Notes under the pieces: generated by a model
Told to the model about the DNA's origin: nothing
The model's input: the letters and a program-made list of their open reading frames with translations, nothing else
The model's database searches: none
Source: [Eubacterium] eligens ATCC 27750
GTDB lineage: Bacteria; Bacillota; Clostridia; Lachnospirales; Lachnospiraceae
DNA length: 64,000 nucleotides
Assembly: GCF_000146185.1 (NCBI RefSeq)
Contig: NC_012778.1
Coordinates: 875,001-939,000 of the forward strand
Direction of reading: 5' to 3'
Program-made: the position numbers and the translations under genes
Part shown: positions 5,382-20,236 of the stretch, in pieces
Layout: every line of letters starts with the position of its first letter
Position numbering within the stretch: the stretch's first letter is position 1

Positions 5382-6047
5382 ATGAACAGAATTCTGATTG
5401 TTGAAGACGATAAAGATATAAGCAGGGAGCTTAAGGAACTGCTGGAAAATTCAGGGTATGAGGCAGAGGTTCTGTCTAATTTTAAAAATGCATGTGACAG
5501 TATTATTGCTGAAGAGCCGGATCTTGTTCTGCTTGATATCAATATTCCGTATATGAATGGGGAAATGCTTTTGCAGCAGTTAAGGAGTAAATCAGATGTG
5601 CCGGTTATTATGGTTACAAGCAGGGATTCAGAGGCTGACGAGGTGCTTTCCATGAGTTATGGGGCAGACGATTATATAACAAAGCCGTATAATCCGACAA
5701 TACTTCTGTTAAGGATTAATGCGGTATTTAAGCGGCTTGGTGCGAAGTCAGATAATACAACAACTTACCGTGGAATGGAAATACTGCCACACAAGGGTGT
5801 AATTAAGTATAAGGATGACGAGATAACTCTTACTAAAAATGAAATGACAATATTCATGTATCTGTTATCACACAGGGAGCATATAGTTTCAAGAGATGAG
5901 CTTATGACTGAGCTGTGGAACAATGAGGAGTACCTTAATGACAATGCGCTTACTGTGAATATAAGCAGGTTAAGAGGCAGATTTAAAGATATTGGACTTG
6001 AAGATGTTATTGAGACAAGAAAGGGACAGGGATATATTCTTGTATGA
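5382..6047 (+). CDS. OmpR/PhoB-family response regulator, BceR-like
   Basis: Protein of 221 residues: a receiver domain (phospho-acceptor Asp52 in LLDINIPYMNG, Lys in TKPY near 100) and a C-terminal winged helix (about 125-221, ending RKGQGYIL). The frame stays open upstream, but the ATG at 5382 has a GAGGA ribosome-binding site and matches the family N-terminus MNRILIVEDD. It overlaps the kinase gene by 4 bp (ATGA). Its likely target is the TTACA-N4-TGTAA box at 17321-17334 upstream of the BceAB-like transporter, which matches the known BceR-type consensus. BceR is inferred from the partner kinase and the transporter. Confidence 0.9.
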   Translation: MNRILIVEDDKDISRELKELLENSGYEAEVLSNFKNACDSIIAEEPDLVLLDINIPYMNGEMLLQQLRSKSDVPVIMVTSRDSEADEVLSMSYGADDYITKPYNPTILLLRINAVFKRLGAKSDNTTTYRGMEILPHKGVIKYKDDEITLTKNEMTIFMYLLSHREHIVSRDELMTELWNNEEYLNDNALTVNISRLRGRFKDIGLEDVIETRKGQGYILV

Positions 6048-7102
6048 GGTTAGGAAAATATATTAAAGACAGACTGTATTCAGTGTGCATATTTGTGGCA
6101 ATGCTTATCATAAGCGTACTTATGATGGCGGCATTCAAGGTGTCTGTCCAGTTAATAATTGCAGAAATATTTATAATGATAATATGCTATATTGCAGTTG
6201 TGCTGGCAGATTATTACCACAGAAAGAAGTTCTATGACGAACTGGAGATTAACATAGCTGCACTTGAAGAAAAATATCTTATTACAGAGACACTTGTCAG
6301 GCCGGCTTTCTATGAAGGGCAGATTTTCTATGATTCTGTGAGTGACATAGACAGGTCGATGACGGAGAATGTTAAACGATACAGGCAGGGAATGGAGCAG
6401 TTCAAAGAGTATGTTGAAATGTGGATTCATGAGATAAAGCTTCCGATAGCCTCACTTACACTTATGCTTCATAATAACATGGATAAATGTGATAAAGAAT
6501 TTGCGGACAGGATGAATACGCAGATTCGCAGAATCAATAACTATATTGAGCAGATTCTTTATTATGTGAGAAGCGAAAATGCAGAAAAAGACTATATAAT
6601 TAACGATGCCAGACTGTCTAAGATTATAAGTAATGTAGCATTAAAGAATAAGTATGATCTGCTTGAAAATGATATCACATTTGAAGTGAGCAATGCAGAC
6701 AGGATTGTTCTTACAGATGCAAAGTGGATGGAATTCATGCTTAACCAGATAGTGAATAACAGCATAAAGTACAAGGATAAGACAAAGGCAGAGTCGTATA
6801 TAAAGATGTCGGCAGCAGAGGATAAAAAATGTGTTGTCCTTGAAATACTGGATAATGGAATTGGCATAAATGCGTCAGATTTGCCGAGAGTTTTTGACAA
6901 ATCATTTACAGGGGAGAATGGAAGAGAGTTCTCCAAGGCAACAGGAATGGGACTTTATATTGTAAAGAAGCTTTGTGACAAGTTAGGACATGCCATAACC
7001 ATTGAGTCGGTAAAGGGCGAATATACACGGGTGAAGATTACATTTTACAAGAATGATTTCTATAAGGAGATAACAGACAGCAATGAAAGTGGCAGTATGT
7101 GA
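6044..7102 (+). CDS. Intramembrane-sensing histidine kinase, BceS-like
   Basis: Protein of 352 residues with only two N-terminal membrane helices (about 12-32 and 36-56) and almost no extracytoplasmic loop, the hallmark of intramembrane-sensing kinases that read the state of a partner ABC transporter. The H-box WIHEIKLP carries His129. The N-box NQIVNNSIKYK and the G motifs DNGIGI and GMGLYIVKKL are intact. The 3' end overlaps the next gene by 20 bp, which places both two-component systems in one operon. The transporter it would normally listen to lies 10 kb downstream (17416-20236). Confidence 0.92.
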   Translation: MRLGKYIKDRLYSVCIFVAMLIISVLMMAAFKVSVQLIIAEIFIMIICYIAVVLADYYHRKKFYDELEINIAALEEKYLITETLVRPAFYEGQIFYDSVSDIDRSMTENVKRYRQGMEQFKEYVEMWIHEIKLPIASLTLMLHNNMDKCDKEFADRMNTQIRRINNYIEQILYYVRSENAEKDYIINDARLSKIISNVALKNKYDLLENDITFEVSNADRIVLTDAKWMEFMLNQIVNNSIKYKDKTKAESYIKMSAAEDKKCVVLEILDNGIGINASDLPRVFDKSFTGENGREFSKATGMGLYIVKKLCDKLGHAITIESVKGEYTRVKITFYKNDFYKEITDSNESGSM

Positions 7103-7793
7103 TGACAACAGAGAGTTCTGTGAGAAGGAACGGACGACTATAAAAGATGTATTTAAGCAGTATTTTCAGGGAGAAGATTGTCAGGTGGATATCTACAATG
7201 ACGGTCAGACAATTATTAGTAATTATTCAGACAATGCTTATGATATGGTATTTCTTGATCTTGAACTGGGCGATGAGAATGGATTTGATATTGCGGAACA
7301 GATAGTATTAATGAATAATGACGCAATTATAATATTTGTTACATCTCATGAGAATCTGGTTTATGAAGCATTCAGATTCAGACCGCTTGGGTATATAGTT
7401 AAAGACAGATTTGACCGTGAATTTACAAGAATGATGGTAAAGATAGTTGATAAACTGATAAAGATGAGGCAGGTAATAGAACTGGGTGGAGAGAAATTCT
7501 ATGTTGACAGGGTTGTTTCAATTGCAACGCAGAAAAGGAAGATATGTGTCAAAAGTCTTAAAGGAGAAATATTATTGGCAGATTCGTATAGTAAGCATGT
7601 TGCAGAGCTTGAAAAATATGGATTTGTGCAGTCAAGCAAGGGTGTGCTTATTAATATGAAATATATTAAGAGCATTGATGAAGATAACGATGTATTTGTG
7701 ATGTATAATAATGAGCGCGTTCCTATAAGCAGGCGCAGGAAGAAAGATGTCATAGAAGAATACAGAAAATTCATGTTTGATAATAACAGGTAG
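7083..7793 (+). CDS. LytTR-family response regulator (AgrA-like)
   Basis: Protein of 236 residues: a receiver domain with Asp59 (MVFLDLELG) and a C-terminal LytTR DNA-binding domain (about 135-236). LytTR regulators bind two short direct repeats about two helical turns apart, and exactly such repeats precede the four units of the exported-protein array at 9053, 9957, 11385 and 12309. The start lies inside the end of the BceS-like kinase gene, with AAGGAG upstream. It is very probably the activator of the array; that link is inference from site architecture and proximity. Confidence 0.93.
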   Translation: MKVAVCDDNREFCEKERTTIKDVFKQYFQGEDCQVDIYNDGQTIISNYSDNAYDMVFLDLELGDENGFDIAEQIVLMNNDAIIIFVTSHENLVYEAFRFRPLGYIVKDRFDREFTRMMVKIVDKLIKMRQVIELGGEKFYVDRVVSIATQKRKICVKSLKGEILLADSYSKHVAELEKYGFVQSSKGVLINMKYIKSIDEDNDVFVMYNNERVPISRRRKKDVIEEYRKFMFDNNR

Positions 7794-7802
7794 GAAACAG
7801 GT

Positions 7803-9050
7803 ATGATGGATATAATCAATATAGTGCTTACATGTGTATTCCTGTGTGTAATGAATACAGGTGTAATATTTATTATGGACAAGATAAGGAAGCTGACGGG
7901 AGATAATATAATACATGTGATTAAGATGGTTCTGTTAGTGGGTGCAGGGGCAGCAGTCTATATAATGACATATTATGGAATTAATCCATGGGTGATAATG
8001 GAACTAATGATTATCATTGCCATTCTGATTGTACAGTATATAGAACAGATAACAATTAAGGTAATACTGGAAATATCACTGATAAATTGTATCGGAATAG
8101 CCATATTATCTGCTAATCAGGCTGATATAATAGCAATATGTATAGTATATCTGGTTGTGGAATTATATATGTTTGTAGTCTATCTGTCTGCAGTAATTAT
8201 AAAATACAGGGAATTGGATAATCTGGAAATGATGTTCATACAGATATGCGTAAGTTCAGTGCTGGCGGGATTATTCTTTGGAACAGGCATATATGACACA
8301 TATAATTATGGGGTAGAGACCGCTGGAATATTAATTGTGACAGTTTTAACATTTGAAATAATCGGACATTGGATGCAGGACTTTTTTAACAGGACAGAGG
8401 AGATTAATAAAAGGATAGAATATGCTAACGAACAGTTTGAGGTTGAACGTGTCCAGAAAATGTATGAAGAAAGCAGAAAGTTAAGACACGACCTTAAGCA
8501 GTGCCTGACTTCTGCAATTGGTTATATGGATGACAACAATTATGATAAGGCAGAAGATTTCTTAAAGAATATTATGAGTGAGAAAATCAATTCATATGCT
8601 TATAGAAAATACTGTGATAATAGAACGCTCAACTATATTCTTAATGATAAGAATGATAAATGTGAAAAGCAGAATATAGCATTTACATGTATGGTACTTG
8701 GTCAGGTTGGACTGATTGATGATATAGATATGTGTATTCTTGCCGGAAATGTAATTGATAATGCCATTGAGGCAGCAGCAAAATGCAGTGATCCGTATGT
8801 CAATGTTGAGATAACAAGCAGAGGTGGAATATTTATGGATGTGGAAAATCCTGTTAAAGAAACATTTCTTAACAGAAAGAATCCGTTCCTGACTACTAAG
8901 CTTGATAAGAATAATCATGGAATTGGTACGAAGAGCATAAGGGATATTGTTGCCAAATATAATGGGGAAATCAGGTATGAGGAAAAGGAAGGAAAGGTAA
9001 CATGTCATATATTCCTTTCGACCAAATATGTTAAGAAAGATAAAGAATAA
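7803..9050 (+). CDS. GHKL-type sensor histidine kinase (AgrC-like)
   Basis: Protein of 415 residues. The N-terminal 200 residues are hydrophobic (about six helices), followed by a coiled-coil helix and the H-box SRKLRHDLKQ with His229. The C-terminal GHKL ATPase has the N-box GNVIDNAIEAA and the motif NHGIGTKSI. This is the layout of peptide-sensing kinases such as AgrC and ComD. No AgrB or AgrD-like gene is nearby, so the ligand is unknown; the small secreted proteins encoded just downstream are obvious candidates. It is partner to the LytTR regulator 9 bp upstream. Confidence 0.92.
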   Translation: MMDIINIVLTCVFLCVMNTGVIFIMDKIRKLTGDNIIHVIKMVLLVGAGAAVYIMTYYGINPWVIMELMIIIAILIVQYIEQITIKVILEISLINCIGIAILSANQADIIAICIVYLVVELYMFVVYLSAVIIKYRELDNLEMMFIQICVSSVLAGLFFGTGIYDTYNYGVETAGILIVTVLTFEIIGHWMQDFFNRTEEINKRIEYANEQFEVERVQKMYEESRKLRHDLKQCLTSAIGYMDDNNYDKAEDFLKNIMSEKINSYAYRKYCDNRTLNYILNDKNDKCEKQNIAFTCMVLGQVGLIDDIDMCILAGNVIDNAIEAAAKCSDPYVNVEITSRGGIFMDVENPVKETFLNRKNPFLTTKLDKNNHGIGTKSIRDIVAKYNGEIRYEEKEGKVTCHIFLSTKYVKKDKE

Positions 9051-9052
9051 TT

Positions 9053-9120
9053 ACCACTTGTGTCAAAAAACGACCGCTTGTGCATATGCTATTGAAAACA
9101 AGTGAATAGGGAATTACATT
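9053..9120 (+). promoter_or_regulatory. LytTR direct-repeat operator plus sigma-A promoter, copy 1
   Basis: ACCACTTGTG (9053-9062) and ACCGCTTGTG (9073-9082) are direct repeats with 20-bp periodicity. They are followed after 9 bp by TTGAAA (9092-9097), a 17-bp spacer and TACATT (9115-9120). The first repeat begins 3 bp after the kinase stop codon. Confidence 0.8.
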
Positions 9121-9153
9121 AAGACTGTACATTGATGGATGTACAGTCTTTTT
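9121..9153 (+). terminator. Terminator-like hairpin between the regulator operon and the first array gene
   Basis: A 12-bp perfect stem (AAGACTGTACAT / ATGTACAGTCTT) and a T-run. It starts right after the -10 box, so transcripts from the local promoter begin inside its 5' arm. It should act mainly on transcripts arriving from the kinase operon, insulating the array from them. Confidence 0.65.
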
Positions 9154-9169
9154 AGTATAAGGAGAAGAT

Positions 9170-9922
9170 ATGAAGAAGAAAATAAAGAGTGCAGTAATAA
9201 GTATAGTTGTTATAGCAGTATTATTATTGGCAATTCTAATTGGTGTTAAGAATGGTACACTAGATAAGCTGACAAAAGAAATGCCGACACTTGCAACAAA
9301 TCAGGCAGAGACAGAAAAGGCAACGGTAAATGCGAGAAATAATTCTACAGAAAGTAAACCTTATGATGGAATCGAGGTTGCTGAATATGGAGAAGAGTTT
9401 GTAATACGTAGAAAAATAGATGGCCGTAAGTACGACGAAAATGATAGAACTACATATAATATATATCATGTAAAAGTTAATGATTGCAAGATATCGAGAC
9501 AGTGTGATTTTGATATTAACAGGTTGGATTTTGGATTGGATAATAAGAAAAAAAGTTTGGATGAAAACAATAATTTTATATCAGATTTTTATTATGCAAC
9601 AGTAGAATTGGAGATAACAAAGGATATTGATGATAATGATGTGATGGATTATATGAATGTTTTTCAGACGACTTGGTCTATATTAAAATTGAATAGCGAT
9701 GGAACAACACAGTCATTTAAAACTAGTGCATGTGTTGGCTCTGATGCGGAAACTAATCAAATTGGAAAAACAAATTTTAGCTTTGAAAAAGGAGAAACAA
9801 GAACATTAACATTATATTATATATTGTCGGATGAAGAAGTCGAAAATGATAAACTTGTTATAAGTTTTAGCCTTAAAAATTCACCATTTATAGGTCCATT
9901 AGCAATCGTACATGAACCATAA
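9170..9922 (+). CDS. Membrane-anchored array protein A1, function unknown
   Basis: Protein of 250 residues. A short basic N-terminus is followed by one membrane helix (about 7-25) and no lipobox cysteine, then a polar linker and a predicted beta-rich extracytoplasmic domain (about 66-250). It is the first of four paralogues (also 10587, 11508, 12941). They share the N-terminal anchor, the central (R/E)xCDFDI..R(I/L)..GL motif, NNFISD(Y/F)YY, an FEKGET block and the C-terminal LAI(V/I)HEP. It resembles telokin-like Ig folds of the DUF4352 type, but that is only an impression. The unit is monocistronic with its own LytTR-type operator. An immunity or peptide-binding partner role is possible. 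Confidence 0.85.
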   Translation: MKKKIKSAVISIVVIAVLLLAILIGVKNGTLDKLTKEMPTLATNQAETEKATVNARNNSTESKPYDGIEVAEYGEEFVIRRKIDGRKYDENDRTTYNIYHVKVNDCKISRQCDFDINRLDFGLDNKKKSLDENNNFISDFYYATVELEITKDIDDNDVMDYMNVFQTTWSILKLNSDGTTQSFKTSACVGSDAETNQIGKTNFSFEKGETRTLTLYYILSDEEVENDKLVISFSLKNSPFIGPLAIVHEP

Positions 9923-9956
9923 GCAAATTAAATAAGTTTTTTAAAACAAGATAATT

Positions 9957-10024
9957 ACCACTTGTGCAAAAAAACGACCGCTTGTGCATGGGCTATTGAA
10001 ATTGATAAATATAAAAGATACATT
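9957..10024 (+). promoter_or_regulatory. LytTR direct-repeat operator plus sigma-A promoter, copy 2
   Basis: ACCACTTGTG (9957-9966) and ACCGCTTGTG (9977-9986), then 9 bp, TTGAAA (9996-10001), a 17-bp spacer and TACATT (10019-10024). The geometry is identical to copy 1, although the spacer sequence differs. Confidence 0.8.
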
Positions 10025-10075
10025 GAAGCAGACAGGTACTTATGTATCTGATTAAAATCTAAGGAGGATTTCTTT

Positions 10076-10507
10076 ATGGATTTAAAGAAACTAACAGGAA
10101 AGCTGACAACAATAGTTGCAGCAGGAGCAATGGTAATGTCAATTGGTGGTGGTGTAGTGTGGGCTAATAATTGCAAAGATGAGTATGCCCATATGTCATT
10201 TGATGAATCTGCGGGGGAGTATCTGGATTATACGTCTAGTAGATTGAAAGAAGATACATCATGTGGATATATCAAAGGTATAGAATCATCGAACGGATAT
10301 TCTTTTAATGCAACACTTGTTGGGGTGGATGAAACGGGATATTGTGAAGATTTTGAATTGATTGATTATGATGTTAATCCAGGAGATGAGATATGGATGT
10401 ATAACTATGTCAAAGAAAATGGATATAATTATGCTGCAGTAAAGTGTGAGAGTAATACAGGGGATGATTACTCAGTTGGATTTTTATGGAGTCCAGATAG
10501 TGTCTAA
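10076..10507 (+). CDS. Small secreted array protein B1 (DUF2712-like)
   Basis: Protein of 143 residues with a clear signal peptide (about 1-30, ending VVWA) and an acidic mature part of about 113 residues containing four cysteines. The C-terminal block has EIWMYNYVKENGY and ends WSPDSV. From memory this resembles the small secreted family DUF2712 and, more loosely, lactococcin-972-like bacteriocins; neither was checked. Nucleotides from the promoter through the signal peptide are almost identical to the second copy at 12428, while the mature regions differ. A strong AAGGAGGA ribosome-binding site precedes the start. It is followed by a hairpin and then the A2 gene. Candidate role: exported signal, bacteriocin or toxin. 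Confidence 0.85.
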   Translation: MDLKKLTGKLTTIVAAGAMVMSIGGGVVWANNCKDEYAHMSFDESAGEYLDYTSSRLKEDTSCGYIKGIESSNGYSFNATLVGVDETGYCEDFELIDYDVNPGDEIWMYNYVKENGYNYAAVKCESNTGDDYSVGFLWSPDSV

Positions 10508-10534
10508 AGTTTAATTAAATTATTTATTAGAAAG

Positions 10535-10570
10535 AAGATTGTATATCATAATATATATACAATCTTTTTT
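10535..10570 (+). terminator. Hairpin with T-tract between B1 and A2
   Basis: The 12-bp stem AAGATTGTATAT / ATATACAATCTT is followed by TTTTTT, 17 bp before the A2 start. A2 has no LytTR site of its own, so this looks like a partial terminator that sets the B:A expression ratio. Confidence 0.7.
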
Positions 10571-10586
10571 CTAAAAGGGAGCAGAT

Positions 10587-11357
10587 ATGAAGAAAAAAAT
10601 AAAGAGTGCAGTAATAAGTATAGCAGTTATAGCAGTATTATTATTGTCAATTCTAATAGGGGTTAAGAATGGTACGCTAGATAAGCTGACAAAAGAAATG
10701 CCGACACTTGAAACAAAACAGGAAGAGACAAAGAAGTCAGCAGAAAATGAGTCTCAAAAAAATGAAAGCAGTAACTCTGTGAGAATAAGAAATTCTAGCA
10801 GAAGAGATATAGCAAATGTTGGTCAGCAGTTTGAATTAAGAAATAATGACGTAAAATATACATATGATGAGAATAATCGAGAAACTTATAATGTATTTTA
10901 TATAACTGTTAAGAGCGTCAATATTTCTAGACAATGCGACTTTGATATTAATAGAATTGATTTCGGATTGAGTACAAAAAGAGATAGTATGGATAATAAT
11001 GATAATTTTATATCGGATTACTATTATATGACGGTTGAATTGGAAGTAACCAAGGATATTAATGACAATGAAATGTTTGCAGATGATTATAATAATTTAC
11101 AAACATTATGGACTAGTGTTAAGGTTAATAAGGACGGTACATATAATAAAATTAAGGATTATGAAAATGTAGGGTCAAGTTCAGACAATACTCATGGAAA
11201 TGTACATTTTGAAAAGGGTGAAACTAAAACAATAACATTATACTATCTTATAACAGATGAAGAATTTGAGAATGAAACATTAGCAATAGATTTTCATTAT
11301 TATGGGTCACCATGCAAAGGAACATTAGCAATCGTACATGAACCAGAAGAAAATTAA
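10587..11357 (+). CDS. Membrane-anchored array protein A2, function unknown
   Basis: Paralogue of A1, 256 residues. It has the same N-terminal membrane anchor (about 7-25), a variable polar linker rich in Ser, Asn and Glu (about 45-70) and the beta-rich outer domain. It lies directly downstream of the secreted protein B1 and must be transcribed with it through the hairpin at 10535-10570. It is closest by eye to A4, the copy occupying the same position in the second block (shared QQFELR, TLW, NTHGNVH and GSPCKGTLAI segments). Position behind a secreted small protein suggests a dedicated partner or immunity protein; this is inference. Confidence 0.85.
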   Translation: MKKKIKSAVISIAVIAVLLLSILIGVKNGTLDKLTKEMPTLETKQEETKKSAENESQKNESSNSVRIRNSSRRDIANVGQQFELRNNDVKYTYDENNRETYNVFYITVKSVNISRQCDFDINRIDFGLSTKRDSMDNNDNFISDYYYMTVELEVTKDINDNEMFADDYNNLQTLWTSVKVNKDGTYNKIKDYENVGSSSDNTHGNVHFEKGETKTITLYYLITDEEFENETLAIDFHYYGSPCKGTLAIVHEPEEN

Positions 11358-11384
11358 ATCAGCTAATCTTTTTAGTAAATAATT

Positions 11385-11452
11385 ACCACTTGTGTCAAAA
11401 AACGACCGCTTGTGCATATGTTCTTGAAAAGAAGTGAATAGGGAATTACATT
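11385..11452 (+). promoter_or_regulatory. LytTR direct-repeat operator plus sigma-A promoter, copy 3
   Basis: ACCACTTGTG (11385-11394) and ACCGCTTGTG (11405-11414), then 9 bp, TTGAAA (11424-11429), a 17-bp spacer and TACATT (11447-11452). It is nearly identical to copy 1. Confidence 0.8.
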
Positions 11453-11489
11453 AAGACTGTATGTTGATGAAATTCAATGTACAGTCTTT
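11453..11489 (+). terminator. Terminator-like hairpin at the start of unit 3
   Basis: Counterpart of the hairpin at 9121-9153. The arms AAGACTGTATGTTGA and TTCAATGTACAGTCTT pair with two G-U wobbles. The T-tract is broken (TTTC), so termination is probably weaker than in copy 1. Confidence 0.5.
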
Positions 11490-11507
11490 CTAGTATAAGG
11501 AGAAGAT

Positions 11508-12284
11508 ATGAACAAGAAAATAAAAAGTGCAGTAATAAGTATAGCAGTTATAGCAGTATTATTATTGGCAATTCTAATAGGGGTTAAGAATGGTACGCTA
11601 GATAAGTTGACGAAAGAAATGCCGACACTTGCAACAAGTCAGACAGAAACGGAGAAGTCAGCAGAAAACGAGTCTGAAAAAAATGAAAGCAGTAGCAACT
11701 CTGCTAGGGTAAGAAATTCTAGAAAAAGAGATATAGTAAATATAGGACAGGAGTTTGAATTAATAGATTGGGATATAAGGTATGGATATGATGAAAATAA
11801 TAGAGATACATATAATGTTTTCAATGTAACCGTAAAGTCAGTAGATATATCAAGAGAATGTGATTTTGATATAAAAAGGATTGATTATGGTTTGACAAAT
11901 AAAAAAGACAGCATGGATGATAATAATAATTTCATATCAGACTATTATTATGTAACTGTGAAATTAAATGTTAACAAAGATATTAATGATCATGATGTAC
12001 CGCCTGATGGAGAAATAAGTATGTTCCAGACAATGTGGTATATAGGAAAGATAGATAGCAATGGAACATTACAGCGTATCAGTAATAGCGGAGCTGTTGG
12101 TTCAGATGTACCGGATAAGCATGGAAATGTATATTTTGAAAAAGGGGAAACTAAAGCAATAACATTGTATTTTCTAATAACTGATGAAGAATTTGAAAAT
12201 GAAACATTAGCAATAGATTTTCATATTTATGGGTCACCGGATAAAGGAACATTAGCAATCGTACATGAACCAGAGACAAATTAG
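11508..12284 (+). CDS. Membrane-anchored array protein A3, function unknown
   Basis: Paralogue of A1, 258 residues, in the equivalent monocistronic position of the second block. The anchor helix and first 40 residues are nearly identical to A1; the linker contains a run of acidic residues and serines. The outer domain keeps the ECDFDI, NNFISDYYY, FEKGET and LAIVHEP motifs. Its C-terminal third looks intermediate between the A1 and A2/A4 types, which suggests recombination between copies. GGAGAAG lies 5 nt before the start. Confidence 0.85.
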   Translation: MNKKIKSAVISIAVIAVLLLAILIGVKNGTLDKLTKEMPTLATSQTETEKSAENESEKNESSSNSARVRNSRKRDIVNIGQEFELIDWDIRYGYDENNRDTYNVFNVTVKSVDISRECDFDIKRIDYGLTNKKDSMDDNNNFISDYYYVTVKLNVNKDINDHDVPPDGEISMFQTMWYIGKIDSNGTLQRISNSGAVGSDVPDKHGNVYFEKGETKAITLYFLITDEEFENETLAIDFHIYGSPDKGTLAIVHEPETN

Positions 12285-12308
12285 ATAGGGCATTTTCATG
12301 AAATATTT

Positions 12309-12376
12309 ACCACTTGTGTCAAAAAACGACCGCTTGTGCATGGACTATTGAAATTGATAAATATAAAAGATACATT
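12309..12376 (+). promoter_or_regulatory. LytTR direct-repeat operator plus sigma-A promoter, copy 4
   Basis: ACCACTTGTG (12309-12318) and ACCGCTTGTG (12329-12338), then 9 bp, TTGAAA (12348-12353), a 17-bp spacer and TACATT (12371-12376). From the second repeat to the signal-peptide codons it is almost identical to copy 2. Confidence 0.8.
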
Positions 12377-12427
12377 GAAGCAGACAGGTACTTATGTATC
12401 TGATTAAAATCTAAGGAGGATTTCTTT

Positions 12428-12862
12428 ATGGATTTAAAGAAACTAACAGGAAAGCTGACAACAATAGTTGCAGCAGGAGCAATGGTAATGTCAATTGGTG
12501 GTGGTGTAGTGTGGGCTAATAATTGCACAGATACTGAAGTTAGAATGTCATTTAATGAGGCAGAGGGAGAGTATCTACATTATACAAGTGGTAGAATGAA
12601 ACAAGATACATCTTGTGGATATATAAAAGGAGAATCTTCTTCTAATGGGTATTCATTTAATGCATCACTTGTTGGTTCTGATAGATATAGTAATTATTAT
12701 GAAGATTTTGATTTGATTGATTATGATGTTTTTCCAAGTGATGAGATATGGATGTACAATTATGTAAAAGAAAATGGATATAGTTATGCAGCTGTTAAAT
12801 GTGAGAGTAATACAGGAAGTGAGTATTCAGTAAAATTTTTATGGAGTCCAGATAGTGTATAA
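12428..12862 (+). CDS. Small secreted array protein B2 (DUF2712-like)
   Basis: Paralogue of B1, 144 residues. The signal peptide (about 1-30) matches B1 residue for residue, but the mature part has many replacements and three instead of four cysteines. The C-terminal motifs EIWMYNYVKENGY and WSPDSV are kept. The pattern of an unchanged promoter and export signal with a changed secreted part is what one expects of diversifying bacteriocins, toxins or signals. The DUF2712 assignment is from memory. The downstream hairpin and A4 repeat the B1-A2 arrangement. Confidence 0.85.
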   Translation: MDLKKLTGKLTTIVAAGAMVMSIGGGVVWANNCTDTEVRMSFNEAEGEYLHYTSGRMKQDTSCGYIKGESSSNGYSFNASLVGSDRYSNYYEDFDLIDYDVFPSDEIWMYNYVKENGYSYAAVKCESNTGSEYSVKFLWSPDSV

Positions 12863-12888
12863 AATCTGATTAAATTGTTTGTAAAAAA

Positions 12889-12921
12889 GAGATTGTATAT
12901 CAGATAATAATATACAATCTC
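12889..12921 (+). terminator. Hairpin between B2 and A4 (weak terminator)
   Basis: The stem GAGATTGTATAT / ATATACAATCTC corresponds to the hairpin at 10535-10570, but the following bases are TTGATT instead of a T-run. More read-through into A4 and the transporter genes is expected. Confidence 0.5.
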
Positions 12922-12940
12922 TTGATTAAAAAGGGAAAAA

Positions 12941-13711
12941 ATGAAGAAGAAAATAAAAAGTGCAGTAATTAGTATAGGCATTATATCAGTATTGTTGTTG
13001 TCAATTCTAATAGGTGTTAAGAATGGAACAATAGATAAGCTGACAAAAGAAATGCCGACACTTGAAACAAAACAGGAACAGACAAATATACAAAATGAAA
13101 ATCAAAACAATACAGGTAATGATTCTGCAAGAGAAGAAAACTTAAGTAAAAGAGATGTGGCGTATATAGGTCAGCAGTTTGAATTGAGGGATGATGATAT
13201 AAGATATAAATATGATGAAAATAATCGGAAAACATATAATGTATTTTATATATCTGTTAGAACCGTTAATATTTCCAGAGAATGTAATTTTGATGTGAAT
13301 AGAATAAGATTTGGACTAGACGATAAGAAAGATAGTATTGATGCAGATTATAATTTTATATCAGATTATTACTATGCAATGATAGAGTTAGAGGTTACTA
13401 AAGATATTAATGATAATGATATAATATTAGATAATGATAATGAATTCCATACATTATGGTATTCTGTAAAACTGAATGAAGATGGTACATATAATAAAAT
13501 TGAAAATTATGAAAATGTTGGGATAAGTTCAGACAATACTCATGGAAATGTTCATCTTGAAAAGGGTGAAACAAAAACAATAACATTATACTATCTTATA
13601 ACAGATGAAGAATTTGAGAATGAAATATTAGCAATAGATTTTTATATTGAGGGGTCACCATGCAAAGGAACATTAGCAATCATACATGAACCAGGAGGAG
13701 AAAATGAATAA
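12941..13711 (+). CDS. Membrane-anchored array protein A4, function unknown
   Basis: Paralogue of A1-A3, 256 residues, with the anchor helix near residues 7-25. It sits behind secreted protein B2, as A2 does behind B1. The linker is the most diverged of the four (Asn/Gln-rich). Its last codons overlap the start of the ABC permease gene by 8 bp (ATGAATAA), so it is translationally coupled to the transporter. This is the best sequence evidence that the array and the ABC transporter work together. Confidence 0.85.
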   Translation: MKKKIKSAVISIGIISVLLLSILIGVKNGTIDKLTKEMPTLETKQEQTNIQNENQNNTGNDSAREENLSKRDVAYIGQQFELRDDDIRYKYDENNRKTYNVFYISVRTVNISRECNFDVNRIRFGLDDKKDSIDADYNFISDYYYAMIELEVTKDINDNDIILDNDNEFHTLWYSVKLNEDGTYNKIENYENVGISSDNTHGNVHLEKGETKTITLYYLITDEEFENEILAIDFYIEGSPCKGTLAIIHEPGGENE

Positions 13712-14525
13712 ATTAATTAAAATAGAATTGGAAAGAGCATTTAAGAATAAGATGCTTATAATATCTGTAGTAATAGGATTAGTTATTGTTGGATTTAATA
13801 TATGGAACGAGATTATTCCTGCAAGAAAAACATTAGATAAACTGCTTGAGATGGGGAAATACAGCGGTATACAGCTTCCGGGACTGTATATGAAGTGGAT
13901 GGGAGTAAGACCGGGGTCTTATGTATTTCTTTATTACTTTATTATGCCGTTGTTGACAGCATTGCCATATTCTATAAGCATATTGATGGATGTGAAGAAG
14001 CATTATGTTAATAATATATTTACAAGAATTGATAAAAAGAAGTATTACAAAGCAAAGCTTTTTGCCCAGTTTATAGTAGGCGGTTTTGTGGCAAGCTTTC
14101 CGCTTGTTATATCATTTGTTGTGACAGCTATGATTTTGCCGGCTTTTAAGCCTGAATCGGTTAGTTCACAGTTTAATTTTTCAAAACTGTCAGTTTTTGG
14201 AGATTTATTTTTTAAAGCACCGTTTGCAATGGCTGTTATAGTATTTTTATTTGCATTTGTGGGATTTGGACTTATTAACTGTATTGCATACATATTTGCA
14301 GACCTTGTAAATAACAGGTTTATGGTCGCACTTACACCATTCATGATGTATTTCTTTTATTATATTGTTTGTTCATCTATTGGAAGAGACGGTCCTATGG
14401 AATATCTGACAGCATCAAAACTTCGTTATTCTGAACTGAAATTTATGATAATTGATATGGTGATGTTAATAGTGCTGATAACAGTATCGTATTTTGTACG
14501 AAGCAGAAGAAAGGATGCAATCTGA
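13704..14525 (+). CDS. ABC-2-type transporter permease subunit
   Basis: Protein of 273 residues. It begins MNKLIKIELERAFKNK, the amphipathic entry typical of ABC-2 permeases. Hydrophobic segments near residues 16-35, 75-95, 115-140, 170-200, 205-225 and 245-265 suggest about six helices. The ATG at 13704 is preferred over 13686 because AGGAGG lies 5-6 nt upstream and the gene then overlaps A4 by 8 bp. It is the first of three different permease-like genes served by the ATPase at 16653. Confidence 0.85.
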   Translation: MNKLIKIELERAFKNKMLIISVVIGLVIVGFNIWNEIIPARKTLDKLLEMGKYSGIQLPGLYMKWMGVRPGSYVFLYYFIMPLLTALPYSISILMDVKKHYVNNIFTRIDKKKYYKAKLFAQFIVGGFVASFPLVISFVVTAMILPAFKPESVSSQFNFSKLSVFGDLFFKAPFAMAVIVFLFAFVGFGLINCIAYIFADLVNNRFMVALTPFMMYFFYYIVCSSIGRDGPMEYLTASKLRYSELKFMIIDMVMLIVLITVSYFVRSRRKDAI

Positions 14526-14526
14526 T

Positions 14527-15075
14527 ATGAAGAAGAAAATATTAATAATAGCGTTAGTATGTATATTGGCGGGAGTGGCAGCGTTCTATATAGTTAAAGT
14601 CAATAAGATGTATCCACAGGGAAGTGTCACTGAATATGAGATTAATGAACAGGTTGAACTTAGCGGATATTCGGCTTGTGTTAACAGCTATAAGGTCATG
14701 TCAATTGATGATTTTATGAATGAGTATGGAATTGATAAACGAAAAGACAGAAGTGATACACAGGATGAAATATACGTTATGGTTGCGCAATGTACTTTAG
14801 ATATAACGGGAGAGATGAAAGGATTTCCTTATGCAGATATCAGACTGGCATCGGGAGCTTTCTCACAGGGAATATCTAATGATTATATAAGAGATATTAA
14901 CAAAGATGTTAATTTTTCTAAGTTTGAGCAGGGGACAAGCATTACTGTAGATGTACCTTTCCTTATCCACAGCATATCATTTCCTCACAGCATAAATGCT
15001 GATAAGCTGAACAAAGAAGAATGGCAGTTGTATTTCTCAGTAACTCCGGGTAAGTATGTGAGAATGGGTAAATAA
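14527..15075 (+). CDS. Membrane-anchored accessory protein of the ABC operon, unknown
   Basis: Protein of 182 residues. It has one N-terminal membrane helix (about 4-24) without a lipobox, then an outer domain beginning YEINEQVELSGY that is laid out like the A-array proteins (anchor, short linker, beta-rich domain). The similarity is weak and judged by eye only. It lies 1 bp after the first permease stop and 1 bp before the second permease start. Starts at 14515 or 14494 cannot be excluded. It may be a solute-binding or immunity component of the transporter. Confidence 0.75.
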   Translation: MKKKILIIALVCILAGVAAFYIVKVNKMYPQGSVTEYEINEQVELSGYSACVNSYKVMSIDDFMNEYGIDKRKDRSDTQDEIYVMVAQCTLDITGEMKGFPYADIRLASGAFSQGISNDYIRDINKDVNFSKFEQGTSITVDVPFLIHSISFPHSINADKLNKEEWQLYFSVTPGKYVRMGK

Positions 15076-15076
15076 T

Positions 15077-15841
15077 ATGTGGAATGAATTGAGAAGAAGA
15101 TATGTTAACAGGGAAATGTTGTTCTGGCTTGCGGGAGCAGTTATTTCACAGGAAGTTCTGCTTACGGTTTTCTTAAGAACTTTACAGAGAAATGTGTCGG
15201 GAACACCGTGTGTATTAGATGTATTGACCTGTATGTCACAGAATTATGTGTTTCCGCTGATGATGATTATAGCAGCTGTCTGTAATCAGAGAATGATGAA
15301 ATGCGACAGAGATCCAATGATAATTCTGAAATACAGTTCGAGAGCAGGAATATATCTGTGGCAGAGTATCTGTACGATAGTGTATTCGGCAGTGTTGTCA
15401 TTAATATATGAACTGGCTGCAATTGCATATGCATCAACTAAGTTTGATGTGTTTTTTAACTGGAACAGTTATTCAAGTTATAAATTAATGAATCTGGATG
15501 TATTGCCGGCAGGTGAGGTAACAAGCATACAGGTAATGTTTGTTTACTGGATATTAATGGCTTTGATGATTGCGATAACATGTTTTATAGGAATTATATT
15601 TGAAATAATATTTTCGTCAGATGTTATATCAGGTGTGGCTGTTATTATATTTGCAGGAGTAGATATATTTATACCGCTTACCTACCATAAGCTGATTATA
15701 TTCGGGGCTGCATGGTATAGTTCCGGAGAGTGCGCCAGAAAGCTTGGCATAGCTGCTTTAATTATGGCTGTTCTGATTATTGCAGGTCTTATTCTTCAAA
15801 GAAAGCGTGAGTATTATGAATATAAAAAAGAAGATGAGTAA
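15077..15841 (+). CDS. ABC transporter permease-like membrane protein
   Basis: Protein of 254 residues with about six hydrophobic segments and little charged sequence between them. It begins MWNELRRRYVNREMLFWLAG. It has no strong resemblance to a named family, but its position between the accessory protein, another permease and the ATPase argues for a transporter membrane subunit. The start follows the previous stop by 1 bp with only a weak ribosome-binding site, so translation is probably coupled. Confidence 0.75.
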   Translation: MWNELRRRYVNREMLFWLAGAVISQEVLLTVFLRTLQRNVSGTPCVLDVLTCMSQNYVFPLMMIIAAVCNQRMMKCDRDPMIILKYSSRAGIYLWQSICTIVYSAVLSLIYELAAIAYASTKFDVFFNWNSYSSYKLMNLDVLPAGEVTSIQVMFVYWILMALMIAITCFIGIIFEIIFSSDVISGVAVIIFAGVDIFIPLTYHKLIIFGAAWYSSGECARKLGIAALIMAVLIIAGLILQRKREYYEYKKEDE

Positions 15842-16649
15842 CAAAAGTATAAGAGGCGTTATATGGCATGATATTGCAAGAGGTTTCTATGCTGACAGAT
15901 TCAGATATTTAATCGCTGTTCTTATGCTTGCCGGAGTGCTGATAATATTAGGAAATCATGAATTCGGAATGATGGATACGATATTCTTTATTCAGGGCGG
16001 TTATGATCCTGTTCTTATTATTAAGGAGGGAAAGATTGTATTTCCTTTTGTATGGATGCTGATTCAGTTTCTTGTTCCATTCATGATATACAGTTATTGC
16101 AATGATGACTGTGAAGGCGTAGGAATTGATTTTCTTATGAAATGCAGAAGCAGAAGGTTGTGGTGGAACAGTAAATGTCTGTGGAACTGCCTGACTGTGC
16201 TTTCTGTATATGCAATTCAGTATGCAACAGCATTTGTATATGGATTATGCAATGGAAACCTGAGTATGAAGATTAATTATGAGCTTTTTGAAAAGATTAG
16301 TAATAAATCTGTTCCGGATAATGCGGCAAACGTGTGGATTATAGTGTATATGCTTGTAATGCCGGTTGTTGTTTCTTTGGTAACAGCACTGGTTCAGATG
16401 ACAATCTCCATGTTTACGAATCCGATGATTGGCATGCTCGCAGTTATGGCATGGAATGTTATGTCAGTATTTATAAACAATCCGCTTATGATAGGAAATA
16501 ATTCGATGGTGGTAAGAAGCAGTGTGTATAATGCACAGAGAATACAGGTATGGCAGTCAGCTGCGGTATGCATTGTTGTGTATATTGTCGTGTATGTGGT
16601 TGGAATGATTGGATTTAATAAAAAAGATATTCTTGTGAGGGAGGATTAA
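15816..16649 (+). CDS. ABC transporter permease-like membrane protein
   Basis: Protein of about 277 residues with roughly six hydrophobic segments and the opening RGVIWHDIARGFYADRFRYL typical of ABC-2 permease N-termini. The start at 15816 is uncertain: an ATG at 15834 overlaps the previous stop codon (ATGAGTAA) and would suit coupled translation. The gene ends at 16649, and GGGAGG at its end serves as the ribosome-binding site of the ATPase gene. Confidence 0.78.
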   Translation: MNIKKKMSNKSIRGVIWHDIARGFYADRFRYLIAVLMLAGVLIILGNHEFGMMDTIFFIQGGYDPVLIIKEGKIVFPFVWMLIQFLVPFMIYSYCNDDCEGVGIDFLMKCRSRRLWWNSKCLWNCLTVLSVYAIQYATAFVYGLCNGNLSMKINYELFEKISNKSVPDNAANVWIIVYMLVMPVVVSLVTALVQMTISMFTNPMIGMLAVMAWNVMSVFINNPLMIGNNSMVVRSSVYNAQRIQVWQSAAVCIVVYIVVYVVGMIGFNKKDILVRED

Positions 16650-16652
16650 AAC

Positions 16653-17291
16653 ATGTATATTAAAATAACAGATGTTAATAAAACGATTAAGAAAGCACCA
16701 ATATTAAGGGATATCAATCTGGAATTTACAGGTGGAAAAGTATATGGATTAAGAGGAAAGAATGGTTCAGGAAAGACTATGCTTATGCGTGCAATATGCG
16801 GGCTTATTACTCCGGATTCGGGAATAATTGATATTAATGGAAAGATACTTGGAAAAGATATCTCATTTCCGGAAAGTATAGGCGTGTTAATTGAGAATCC
16901 TGCATTTATAGGTAATTATACAGGATTTAAGAATCTTAAGGTGCTGGCATCTATTCAGAACAGAATTGGTGATGAACAGATAAGAAAGGCACTTGAAGAT
17001 ATCGGACTTGATCCGGATGACAAGAGAACTTACAGAAAGTATTCTCTGGGAATGAAGCAGAAGTTAGGAATTGCGGCAGCAGTTATGGAAAATCCTGATA
17101 TTATTATTCTTGACGAGCCGATTAATGCACTTGATGATGTCAGTGTTGAGAAGGTTCATGATATATTAGAAGAACAGAAGAAAAGAGGAGCGGTAATAAT
17201 TATTGCATGCCACGATAAGGAAGAACTTGACCAGCTATCTGATGAGATTATAGAGATATCAGATGGCAGAATTATCAATAAAACCTGTTAG
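16653..17291 (+). CDS. ABC transporter ATP-binding protein (BcrA/LanF-like)
   Basis: Protein of 212 residues. The Walker A motif is GKNGSGKTM (about 36-44), the signature YSLGMKQKLG, Walker B IIILDEPINALD, and a switch histidine lies in ACHDKEEL. The YSLGMKQ signature is typical of peptide-antibiotic resistance and immunity ATPases such as BcrA and LanF. As the only ATPase in the 13704-17291 operon it probably energises the three permeases, exporting or expelling the small array proteins or a related peptide. Substrate direction is inferred. Confidence 0.9.
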   Translation: MYIKITDVNKTIKKAPILRDINLEFTGGKVYGLRGKNGSGKTMLMRAICGLITPDSGIIDINGKILGKDISFPESIGVLIENPAFIGNYTGFKNLKVLASIQNRIGDEQIRKALEDIGLDPDDKRTYRKYSLGMKQKLGIAAAVMENPDIIILDEPINALDDVSVEKVHDILEEQKKRGAVIIIACHDKEELDQLSDEIIEISDGRIINKTC

Positions 17292-17320
17292 TAGTATCAT
17301 TACATAGTACTGGCGTAATG

Positions 17321-17334
17321 TTACAAAAATGTAA
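17321..17334 (+). promoter_or_regulatory. BceR-type operator upstream of the BceAB-like genes
   Basis: TTACA-AAAA-TGTAA, a perfect inverted repeat within ATGTTACAAAAATGTAATGT. It matches the TNACA-N4-TGTAA consensus described for BceR-like regulators, 81 bp before the ATPase start. The likely binder is the regulator encoded at 5382-6047. Confidence 0.7.
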
Positions 17335-17415
17335 TGTTCCGTAATATTGAACAAACGACACCGGATTAGTTAAGTGGTAAAACATAATTAATCTATATGA
17401 AAGGAATTAATTATT

Positions 17416-18183
17416 ATGGAAACAATACTTAAGATTGATAACATTGAAAAGTATTATGGAAACAAATCAAGTCTTACCAAAGCGATTGACAATATTTCGT
17501 TTGAGGTTGGAAAGGGAGAATTCGTTTCTATAATGGGAGCGAGCGGTTCAGGAAAGACGACGCTTCTTAACTGTATATCAACACTTGATAAGGTGACTAC
17601 AGGTAAGATATATGTCGGAGACAACGAAATTACACAGTTAAAGGGCAATAAGCTTAACAAGTTCAGAAGAGAGGAGTTAGGCTTTATCTTTCAGGACTTT
17701 AATCTTCTTGATACTTTAACAGCATTTGAAAATATTGCACTGGCGCTTTCTATACAGAATGTTCCGTCAAGGGAGATTGAATTAAGAGTAAGACAGACTG
17801 CAAGAGAGCTAGGTATTGAAGATGTATTAAACAAATATCCTTATCAGATGTCAGGCGGACAGAAGCAGAGGGTAGCAAGTGCAAGAGCCATTATTACGAA
17901 CCCAAAGCTTATTCTTGCTGATGAGCCGACAGGAGCGCTTGACTCAAGGTCATCAAGGATGTTACTTGAGAGCTTTAATTTTCTTAATACTGAGCTTTCG
18001 GCAACAATTCTTATGGTAACCCACGACGCATTTACTGCAAGCTACGCAGGCAGAGTGATATTTATCAAGGACGGTAAAATCTTCAATGAGATACGCAGAG
18101 GCGAATCTACAAGAAAAGAATTTTTTGATAAAATCATTGATGTTGTGACATTGTTAGGAGGCGACCTTAATAATGCTCTTTAA
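17416..18183 (+). CDS. Bce-type ABC transporter ATP-binding protein
   Basis: Protein of 255 residues, the usual length for BceA. The Walker A motif GASGSGKTT is near residues 40-48, with Q-loop FIFQDFNLLD, signature MSGGQKQRVA, Walker B LILADEPTGALD and switch MVTHD. It works with the large permease that follows, overlapping it by 11 bp. Such pairs sense and detoxify cell-wall-active peptide antibiotics and report flux to a BceS-type kinase (here 6044-7102). It has a separate transcript start downstream of the TTACA/TGTAA box. Confidence 0.93.
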   Translation: METILKIDNIEKYYGNKSSLTKAIDNISFEVGKGEFVSIMGASGSGKTTLLNCISTLDKVTTGKIYVGDNEITQLKGNKLNKFRREELGFIFQDFNLLDTLTAFENIALALSIQNVPSREIELRVRQTARELGIEDVLNKYPYQMSGGQKQRVASARAIITNPKLILADEPTGALDSRSSRMLLESFNFLNTELSATILMVTHDAFTASYAGRVIFIKDGKIFNEIRRGESTRKEFFDKIIDVVTLLGGDLNNAL

Positions 18184-20236
18184 GATATCTTTAAAGAACA
18201 TCAGGAAGAGTTTAAAGGATTATACCGTCTATTTCTTCACTCTTATTCTTGGTGTTGCAATATTTTATGTGTTTAATGCAATTGACAGCCAGAGCGTTAT
18301 GCTTGATGTAAGAGCAAATGTGATGGATATTATCAAGCTGATGAATGACATTCTTTCAGGAGTAAGCGTATTCGTATCGTGCATACTTGGATTTCTGATT
18401 ATATATGCAAGCCGTTTTCTTATTAAAAGACGTAATAAGGAGTTTGGCATATATCTTACACTTGGAATGAGCAAGAGAAAGATTTCAGTGATTCTTTTCT
18501 TTGAGACACTGCTTATTGGCATTGTTTCACTTGTGGCAGGGCTTGTTATTGGCACAATCCTTTCACAGTTTATGAGCGTGATTGTTGCTAATATGTTTGA
18601 TGCTGATATGACTAAGTTTAAATTCATATTCTCAATGAAGGCATGCGTCAAGACTTTAATATATTTTGCAATTATGTATGTGTTAGTTATGATATTTAAC
18701 ACATTCAGTATCAGCAGATGTAAGCTTATTGATCTTCTCAATGCAGGTAAGAAAACTGAGAAGGTTACCATGAAGAACCCGGTTGTCTGCACAATAGTAT
18801 TCGTCATAGGTGTTGGTATTCTTTCTTATGCATACTGGATGGTTACAAGGGGTGTTAAGTCAATAAATATCATTAATAAAATAGGTATTCCTATTGCACT
18901 TGGATGTGTTGCAACATTTTTAATATTCTGGTCAGTCTCAGGCTTTATGATAAGAATATTCACAAGTATTAAGAGTGTGTATTATAAAGGTGTGAACAGC
19001 TTTGTGTTAAGGCAGTTCTGCAGCAAGATTAACACTACTGTATTCTCGACAACTGTTATATGTATCATGCTTTTTATTACAATAAGCGTGCTTTCTGCAG
19101 CACTTTCAATGAAGGATTCGCTTTCAAAGGATCTGGACAGTATGTGTCCTGTTGATGTACAGCTTGCAAAATATTCATATGATGCGATGAGCGAGGCATA
19201 TGCCACATCACAGAATATGAATGAAAAAGACAGGGAAATGCTGGAAGATTCCAAATTAAGTATAATAGAAACGCTTAATAACAGTGGATTTGATGCACAG
19301 AAGTATTTTAAGGATGTTGTAGAATATAATATATACAACACCGGATTGACAGTTAAAGATACAATAGGGGATATTAATACAGATGATTATCAGTTTATGG
19401 CAGATACTATTATGCCGGTAATGACTATTGGCGATTATAATTCTGTTGCAAGACTGTATGGTAATAGTACGTATGAACTTAATGACGATGAATATATTAT
19501 AGTGGCAGATTATAAGAACATGGTTATGATAAGGAATCAGGCATTAAAGAAAGGAATTACATTATCTGTCAATGGAAAAGAGTATAAACCAAGATATAGT
19601 GAATGCATGGATGGTTTTGTACAGATTGGTGTTCAGAATATGAATGATGGGATTCTTGTTGTGCCTGATAATGCGGTAAAACCACAGCAGGTACGTAATA
19701 TGGGACTTAGTGCTGACTATAGGGCAGACACTAAGGAAGAAAGATATTTTATTGAAACACAGTTAGACAATTTAATGAAAAATATATCATTTAAGAAGAG
19801 CTTCATTAGCTGGAATTCCAGAATTGACCTGGCTGAAAGCAGTGTCGGGCTTGGAGCGTTAGTTACATTTATTGCCTTATATTTAGGAATTATATTCCTT
19901 ATAAGCAGTGCGGCAATTCTTGCTTTGAGAGAATTGTCAGACAGTGCAGACAATAAGGAACGATATGGAATGTTAAGGAAGCTTGGAGTAGATGAGAGAA
20001 TGATTGATATGGCGCTTTTTAAGCAGATTGGAATATTTTTTGCGTTTCCGCTGATTCTCGCACTTATTCATTCTGTGTTTGGAATTAAGTTTATTAACAT
20101 AATTCTTGCAACTATGGGAATGAGTTCAATGGCAGCGTCTATAGGGCTTACGCTCGCATTCGTTGCTGTTATTTATGGAGGATATTTCCTTATAACTTAT
20201 CTGTGCAGCAGAAGCATTATAAGACCTGTAAGATAA
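18173..20236 (+). CDS. Bce-type ABC transporter permease (FtsX-like)
   Basis: Protein of 687 residues, in the normal BceB range. Seven helices in the first half are followed by a large extracytoplasmic domain (about residues 313-557, between helices 7 and 8) and three C-terminal helices. That layout is diagnostic of peptide-antibiotic Bce-type permeases, in which the big loop contributes substrate specificity. It overlaps the ATPase gene. No clear terminator follows before the cheV promoter. The likely substrate is a lipid II-interacting peptide or a product of the nearby array; which one cannot be read from sequence. Confidence 0.92.
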   Translation: MLFKISLKNIRKSLKDYTVYFFTLILGVAIFYVFNAIDSQSVMLDVRANVMDIIKLMNDILSGVSVFVSCILGFLIIYASRFLIKRRNKEFGIYLTLGMSKRKISVILFFETLLIGIVSLVAGLVIGTILSQFMSVIVANMFDADMTKFKFIFSMKACVKTLIYFAIMYVLVMIFNTFSISRCKLIDLLNAGKKTEKVTMKNPVVCTIVFVIGVGILSYAYWMVTRGVKSINIINKIGIPIALGCVATFLIFWSVSGFMIRIFTSIKSVYYKGVNSFVLRQFCSKINTTVFSTTVICIMLFITISVLSAALSMKDSLSKDLDSMCPVDVQLAKYSYDAMSEAYATSQNMNEKDREMLEDSKLSIIETLNNSGFDAQKYFKDVVEYNIYNTGLTVKDTIGDINTDDYQFMADTIMPVMTIGDYNSVARLYGNSTYELNDDEYIIVADYKNMVMIRNQALKKGITLSVNGKEYKPRYSECMDGFVQIGVQNMNDGILVVPDNAVKPQQVRNMGLSADYRADTKEERYFIETQLDNLMKNISFKKSFISWNSRIDLAESSVGLGALVTFIALYLGIIFLISSAAILALRELSDSADNKERYGMLRKLGVDERMIDMALFKQIGIFFAFPLILALIHSVFGIKFINIILATMGMSSMAASIGLTLAFVAVIYGGYFLITYLCSRSIIRPVR

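Follow-up and report, generated by a model that had tools for sequence, protein, structure and literature searches.

A DUF2712-family gene cassette with agr-type regulators inserted in a Bce operon of [Eubacterium] eligens

Gene content and sequence features of the locus

The window analyzed here is a stretch of 64,000 nucleotides of [Eubacterium] eligens ATCC 27750 (NC_012778.1, positions 875,001 to 939,000) in the main contig (2,144,190 bases) of a genome of three contigs and 2,831,389 bases. Between positions 5382 and 20236, it carries a cassette of genes for two secreted proteins (B1 and B2), four membrane-anchored proteins (A1 to A4), an ATP-binding cassette (ABC) transporter and a LytTR/GHKL regulator pair. 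The cassette is flanked on both sides by genes of one Bce operon, as follows.

5382..6047, +, BceR-like OmpR-family response regulator of the host operon (Pfam Response_reg and Trans_reg_C; 77% identity to locus L048)
6044..7102, +, BceS-like sensor kinase whose C-terminal tail runs into the cassette (HATPase_c, HisKA; 64% to L048 BceS)
7083..7793, +, LytTR response regulator, first cassette gene (Pfam Response_reg and LytTR)
7803..9050, +, AgrC-like GHKL histidine kinase (Pfam GHKL; six N-terminal hydrophobic stretches)
9053..9081, +, LytTR-type tandem operator 5' of A1 (pattern scan)
9121..9150, +, hairpin 5' of A1 (folding z -5.75; terminator-like)
9170..9922, +, A1, membrane-anchored protein (hydropathy; fold by likeness to the A3 model)
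9957..9985, +, LytTR-type tandem operator 5' of B1 (pattern scan)
10076..10507, +, B1, secreted DUF2712-family protein, candidate effector (PF10916, 18.3 bits, cut-off 22; 81% to B2)
10527..10574, +, hairpin between B1 and A2 (folding z -6.20)
10587..11357, +, A2, membrane-anchored protein (hydropathy)
11385..11413, +, LytTR-type tandem operator 5' of A3 (pattern scan)
11453..11488, +, hairpin 5' of A3 (folding z -4.87)
11508..12284, +, A3, membrane-anchored protein (modelled)
12309..12337, +, LytTR-type tandem operator 5' of B2 (pattern scan)
12428..12862, +, B2, secreted DUF2712-family protein (modelled; all-beta)
12887..12923, +, hairpin between B2 and A4 (folding z -5.23)
12941..13711, +, A4, membrane-anchored protein (hydropathy)
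13686..14525, +, P1, ABC permease, near-constant partner of B (38 of 42 stretches with B)
14527..15075, +, L1, small anchored protein, DUF4352/DUF5028-like (37 of 42, loose profile)
15077..15841, +, P2, ABC permease (four hydrophobic stretches; 25 of 42)
15813..16649, +, P3, ABC permease (39 of 42)
16653..17291, +, ABC ATPase (ABCx), last cassette gene (best NCBIfam match TIGR03740, below cut-off; 36 of 42)
17321..17334, +, BceR-type box TTACA-N4-TGTAA kept 5' of bceA (same box in L048, L049 and L051 by scan, in L050 by eye)
17416..18183, +, BceA-like ATPase of the host operon (Pfam ABC_tran; 89% to L048)
18173..20236, +, BceB-like FtsX permease of the host operon (Pfam FtsX, two stretches; 70% to L048)

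The gene order of the original prediction was confirmed, with all genes on the + strand and their domains present by Pfam, as were the bceR/bceS, bceS/LytTR, A4/P1 and bceA/bceB overlaps and the count of four A and two B proteins. The predicted five-gene ABC operon (13686 to 17291, in the order P1-L1-P2-P3-ATPase) has its five genes, and its composition is three permeases, one ATPase and one anchored protein, L1, that is no permease. The ABC_tran domain was found in two proteins of the locus. In the BceS-like kinase, HATPase_c was present and HisKA scored just below the Pfam cut-off (25.8 versus 26.9 bits).

B1 and B2 have a signal-peptide-like start by simple hydropathy, and the exported product has about 110 residues after the signal peptide. 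Both scored below the 22-bit cut-off of PF10916 (DUF2712), at 18.3 and 18.1 bits, respectively, while a B protein of a relative (L024) reached 24.2 bits, the near-identical public protein P0001 is labelled PF10916.15, and B2 homologues (P0001 to P0041) carry precomputed PF10916 labels. The homologues share a conserved C-terminal W-S-P-D-S. The B2 model is all-beta, with block confidence (pLDDT) values of 82 to 96 from residue 31 on. B1 and B2 share 98% identity over the 230 bases around their starts. Codons 1 to 32 show zero differences among B1, B2 and the B gene of the orthologous locus L023, whereas the mature parts of these three genes diverge, with synonymous divergence (dS) of 0.56 to 0.71 in codons 33 to 100. 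This indicates that promoter, operator and signal peptide were kept alike while the mature parts diverged.

Each of A1 to A4 has one N-terminal hydrophobic stretch by simple hydropathy, and the fold of A, from the A3 model, is that of a DUF4352-type, immunoglobulin (Ig)-like exported domain. None of the four matched DUF4352 in Pfam at E values up to 1, and the best DUF4352 score among the anchored proteins of relatives that were tested was 20.3 bits (L031), short of the cut-off of 25.9. L1 has DUF4352/DUF5028 family matches in relatives and a profile match to A. The A fold also matches YxkC in entry 9a4z, which is titled as a model of YxkC with DACA; DacA is a cell-wall enzyme, and A-type domains may contact such enzymes. 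Several A homologues in public protein sets (P0052, P0082, P0101 and others) appear by eye as mosaics of A1 to A4 of the window, which suggests recombination between copies, although they may be assembly chimeras.

The tandem operator, ACCRCTTGT-N11-ACCRCTTGT with 20 bp from start to start, lies 5' of A1, B1, A3 and B2 (at 9053, 9957, 11385 and 12309, respectively). With spacers of 9 to 13 bases allowed, these four, all inside the array, were the only exact matches in the 2.83-Mb genome, and the reversed control pattern gave 0 matches genome-wide. Promoter-like TTGAAA-N17-TACATT sequences follow the operators of A1 and B1 and were seen by eye before A3 and B2. The LytTR protein of the cassette would bind the four operators. 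Hairpins lie 5' of all four A genes, and for each of them none of 200 shuffles folded as well (z -4.87 to -6.20); each may act as a partial terminator or a processing site. Locus L023 has two tandem operators. At L029, the repeats ACAGTTTGT/ACAGTTTAT precede B with the spacing of the window operator and are near the AgrA consensus; the L029 regulator pair is the closest to that of the window (LytTR 35%, GHKL 31%) among the non-orthologous stretches of the genus that were compared.

Recurrence of the cassette and its agr-type regulators

An alignment search with B found the gene in 11 of 22 genomes of the genus, 25 of 298 of the family and 2 of 398 of the phylum, the latter two being this genome and G188. 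Neighbours were counted in a span reaching 6.5 kb upstream and 9 kb downstream of B in the 42 stretches with B among 43 examined (L035 is without B); the genomes are one per species, several are drafts, and contig ends lower the counts. P3 was near B in 39 stretches, P1 in 38, L1 in 37, the ATPase in 36 and P2 in 25. An anchored-type protein was present in 34 by a simple rule (140 to 320 residues, an N-terminal membrane stretch or lipobox and no further membrane stretch). Three of the four stretches without P1 (L033, L093 and L114) meet a contig edge 0.9 kb or less downstream of B, and the fourth (L112) ends 1.1 kb downstream of B, after an opposite-strand gene. A later search found seven further B places in the genus, and P1 was present in all five that were fetched (L133 to L137). 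The occurrence of P1 in 38 of 42 stretches supports the predicted link between the A/B array and the ABC operon. The five-gene operon is a core part of the system, and the cassette, made up of B, A, three permeases, a second anchored protein and the ABC ATPase, is an independent unit.

The regulators accompany B less regularly, with LytTR in 19, GHKL in 18 and AgrB in 8 of the 42 stretches, so that the predicted association of a LytTR/GHKL pair with the array is frequent. In the genus, 10 of 16 stretches have LytTR near B, where a background of 4.4% per 16 kb is expected (P = 1.8e-10 if the stretches, which include the orthologous window and L023, are independent); for all 42 stretches, this background is only approximate. 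BceR, BceS, BceA and BceB were near B in 3 stretches each. The co-occurrence proposed as a check in the original prediction was near-constant for the transporter, partial for LytTR/GHKL and rare for the Bce genes.

The window pair combines a GHKL kinase with a LytTR regulator by Pfam, as in agr systems. No agrB or agrD was found at the window locus. An AgrD-like open reading frame lies directly 5' of B in seven of the eight stretches with agrB (L111 is the one without); six of these cases came from a pattern scan, and in the seventh (L022) agrD overlaps B in another frame. The presence of these genes beside B bears out the assignment of the regulator pair to the agr type. Five of six AgrD-like peptides scored above the cut-off of NCBIfam TIGR04223, and that of L095 scored 17.7 versus 19 bits. 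The AgrD pattern gave three matches in the other 39 stretches: two (L100 and L102) look like chance, and the third (L135) has an AgrB piece and an AgrD-like peptide.

The source genome has three AgrB genes outside the window locus, two of them adjoining other B cassettes. On a named L. eligens plasmid, one more AgrB gene, separate from B, is accompanied by an agrD, a kinase and a LytTR gene of its own. Because agrB and agrD are absent from the window locus while present elsewhere in the genome, the window pair is probably an orphaned agr-type pair, which would respond to a peptide made at another locus or by another cell, or to a different ligand. Contig 2 of the genome and the named plasmid carry the same AgrD-like peptide and B region. 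On this megaplasmid (L058:8873-9348, equal to L022:9666-10141 of G000 contig 2), the B frame overlapped by agrD is without a signal peptide and may be a decayed copy or a frame-shifted fusion. Another B cassette of the same genome (L090, G000:C1:642001-661900) has agrD immediately 5' of B, and its agrB, LytTR and GHKL genes follow the ATPase.

Across the 22 genomes of the genus, B almost always comes with the transporter, while the reverse does not hold: many transporter loci have no detected B. Of 26 B places, 25 have P1 no more than 8 kb away, and the lone exception (G021:C248) has a contig end 0.6 kb downstream. No B was detected at 16 of 38 P1 places, three of which are at contig ends (G017:C135, G021:C129 and G020:C107). 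(The LytTR list used in this comparison covered 150 of 156 matches.) Among the 11 of these 16 places that were fetched (L122 to L132), LytTR and GHKL were present in 7 and an ATPase was detected in 8. In 6 of the 11, no more than about 210 bases separate the kinase from the next cassette gene, which leaves no room for B there.

Amplification of cassette genes was also seen in other loci. In L101 (G601:C29), which belongs to another genus, a separate amplification has the order A A A B A A B A with 300-base repeats of 89 to 96% identity, and L133 has two B genes and four similar lipoprotein genes. Several copies of a P1-like gene surround two B genes in L099 (G681:C47).

Insertion of the cassette in a Bce operon

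The genes on either side of the cassette are those of a Bce module (OmpR-type regulator, membrane kinase, ATPase and FtsX permease, with a BceR-type box), and their order is broken by the cassette alone. A BceB relative (E up to 1e-30) was found in 10 of the 22 genomes of the genus. In four of them (G008, G012, G013 and G018; L048 to L051), close relatives of BceR, BceS, BceA and BceB are contiguous, without the array; the closest of these operons, L048, shares 77, 64, 89 and 70% identity with the respective window proteins. More distant Bce sets in G014 and G016 are also contiguous. The operon is interrupted in 3 of the 22 genomes: the block from LytTR to ATPase separates bceS from bceA in the window, G011 (L023) and G017, where the arrangement spans two contigs (L035 and L055).

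In L048, a TTACA-N4-TGTAA box, which fits the BceR-type consensus TNACA-N4-TGTNA and is a putative BceR binding site, lies 12 bases from the bceS stop codon. The box is located 5' of bceA without mismatch in L048, L049 and L051, and in the window it lies after the block, upstream of bceA. The window bceS has a short new tail, ...YKEITDSNESGSM, that overlaps the LytTR gene, where the L048 tail is ...YKEIV (DNA read by eye). The placement of the box and the new bceS tail indicate that the cassette entered between bceS and the bceA promoter. The contiguous operons of the four relatives and the retention of the box before bceA indicate that the Bce module, described as split in the original prediction, was interrupted by an insertion. 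The block was thus inserted between bceS and the bceAB promoter in one Lachnospira lineage, and bceAB kept its own box.

BceA and BceB were near B in the window, in the orthologous L023 and in L114. In the last of these (G443:C34), an intact BceRSAB operon is about 4 kb from the B gene, with other genes intervening. The Bce unit is a neighbour of the cassette and no conserved part of the system, and an agr-type cassette inserted in a Bce operon describes the locus better than "Bce plus array". The contiguity on one strand and the gene overlaps, which make a single system a tempting misreading, result from one module inserted in another. The Bce unit itself probably senses peptide antibiotics like others of its kind, and it may have been recruited in the window lineage to add protection. 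A report on Lactococcus lactis describes a Bce-like module that protects against Lcn972 and bacitracin (PMC7438565), a precedent by which the Bce unit could have been co-opted here.

Candidate function and alternative explanations

The interpretation that we favour, to which we give about an even chance, is that the cassette encodes an agr-derived, LytTR-controlled secreted effector together with self-protection by anchored proteins and an ABC transporter. In this proposal, B1 and B2 would be Sec-exported beta-sandwich proteins that act outside the cell and may harm competitors, while A, membrane-anchored and Ig-like, and the three-permease ABC transporter with L1 would protect the producer in the manner of LanI and LanFEG of lantibiotic producers. 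The AgrC/AgrA-like pair would turn on the A and B units via the four tandem operators, and the hairpin before each A gene would set the ratio of B to A. The cassette, in this view agr-derived, is an independent unit inserted between bceS and the bceAB promoter of one Lachnospira lineage. This interpretation is favoured by the recurrent composition, the LytTR enrichment, the position of AgrD before B, the asymmetry between B and transporter, the confinement of the operators to the array, the insertion evident from four contiguous bce operons and the retained box, the amplification of A and B also in L101 and L133, and the best match of the ATPase to a lantibiotic-protection family. The asymmetry is expected where effector and protection genes occur together.

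Self-protection against lantibiotics consists of the LanI lipoprotein and the LanFEG ABC transporter under a two-component system. The cassette resembles this layout in its anchored extracellular protein, its small-permease ABC transporter, whose ATPase has the lantibiotic-protection ATPase TIGR03740 as best NCBIfam match, and the adjoining genes for an exported product and a two-component system. It differs in having a protein of about 110 residues as its exported product, three permeases, anchored proteins of two kinds and regulators of the AgrC/AgrA type. By analogy, the cassette would work most like LanI/LanFEG protection, from which it departs in two defining respects: the ATPase scored 166.3 bits against a TIGR03740 cut-off of 309.75, and no lanthionine-forming enzymes were found among the 20 Pfam-scanned proteins between 2782 and 21221. 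With the agr operon (AgrB, AgrD, AgrC and AgrA), the cassette shares the GHKL kinase, the LytTR regulator, the tandem direct-repeat operators and, in some relatives, agrB and agrD; it differs in that agrB and agrD were not found at the window locus and in that the pair would regulate the adjoining genes for secreted and anchored proteins. Lactococcin 972-type bacteriocins are Sec-exported unmodified proteins with an ABC transporter alongside and one large membrane protein. The cassette would share with them the Sec-exported unmodified product and the adjoining transporter, but has three small permeases instead of the one large membrane protein. By sequence, B is no member of this family: B1 and B2 had no match to PF09683 at E values up to 1.

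Several observations weigh against an effector with self-protection. The ratio of nonsynonymous to synonymous divergence (dN/dS) was below 1 in every comparison, and we know of no killing activity of these proteins. One B-less place (L123) is without a detected ATPase although its contig continues, unlike what is expected of kept protection. A detoxification pump that B assists only optionally would give the asymmetry as well; this is the main rival explanation.

According to this rival, the LytTR/GHKL-A-ABC unit detoxifies foreign peptides with the aid of B, a secreted binding protein or decoy rather than a weapon. Such a resistance-only function would account for the 16 of 38 P1 places without detected B, for the LytTR and GHKL genes kept in 7, and the ATPase detected in 8, of the 11 such places that were fetched, for the likeness of the ATPase to a protection ATPase and for the location of the window set inside a resistance operon. 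It is nevertheless unlikely, since agrB and agrD beside B in a subset of stretches point to self-produced signalling, which pure detoxification would not need, and since B is duplicated and has its own operator. A role in signalling or at the surface, in which B would be a non-toxic matrix, adhesin or carbohydrate-binding protein, A its surface partner and the ABC transporter an assembly or export machine, is still less probable: the signal-peptide-like start of B should make ABC export needless, transporter sets without detected B are common, and the ATPase best matches a protection transporter. The original prediction, in which array and Bce unit form one system and the latter detects or removes the product of the former, has position and strand and the Lactococcus pairing (PMC7438565) in its favour but was not borne out and is very improbable, as three of the 42 stretches, of which two are orthologues, have Bce genes near B, four relatives have contiguous operons without the array, bceAB has its own BceR-type box, and no result points to Bce acting on B.

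If the effector interpretation extends beyond the window, DUF2712 would be a new class of unmodified, Sec-exported beta-sandwich antibacterials of Lachnospiraceae with dedicated Ig-like/ABC self-protection and often agr-type control. Its cassettes would travel and could expand to arrays of several genes, and B-less cassettes would be immunity-only copies. We advance this generalization tentatively, as somewhat less probable than not. If B is antibacterial, a class of protein bacteriocins would be added in gut commensals, one that would be missed by rules keyed to known bacteriocin families. DUF2712, a family without known function, is placed in a genomic context with a transporter that recurs beside it, an anchored partner protein and, in some stretches, regulators of the agr type, and it is the DUF2712 cassette rather than its Bce neighbour that merits study.

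No mention of DUF2712 was found in the open-licence papers searched. The suggestion that the composition is undescribed also appears to hold, as the open-licence literature on E. eligens, AgrD in Lachnospiraceae, LytTR/GHKL or DUF4352 with bacteriocins, on cyclic-lactone autoinducers in Lachnospira and on AgrD in lantibiotic immunity gave no account of it. A 2026 survey of bacteriocins of rumen isolates lists cyclic-lactone-autoinducer and lactococcin 972-like clusters (PMC13289728). Upstream of the Bce operon, the window encodes a TPM-domain membrane protein (4436 to 5254) with a glycine/serine-rich tail, which weakly matches the Pfam YxzE-like putative bacteriocin family (26.5 bits, cut-off 40), probably because of its composition.

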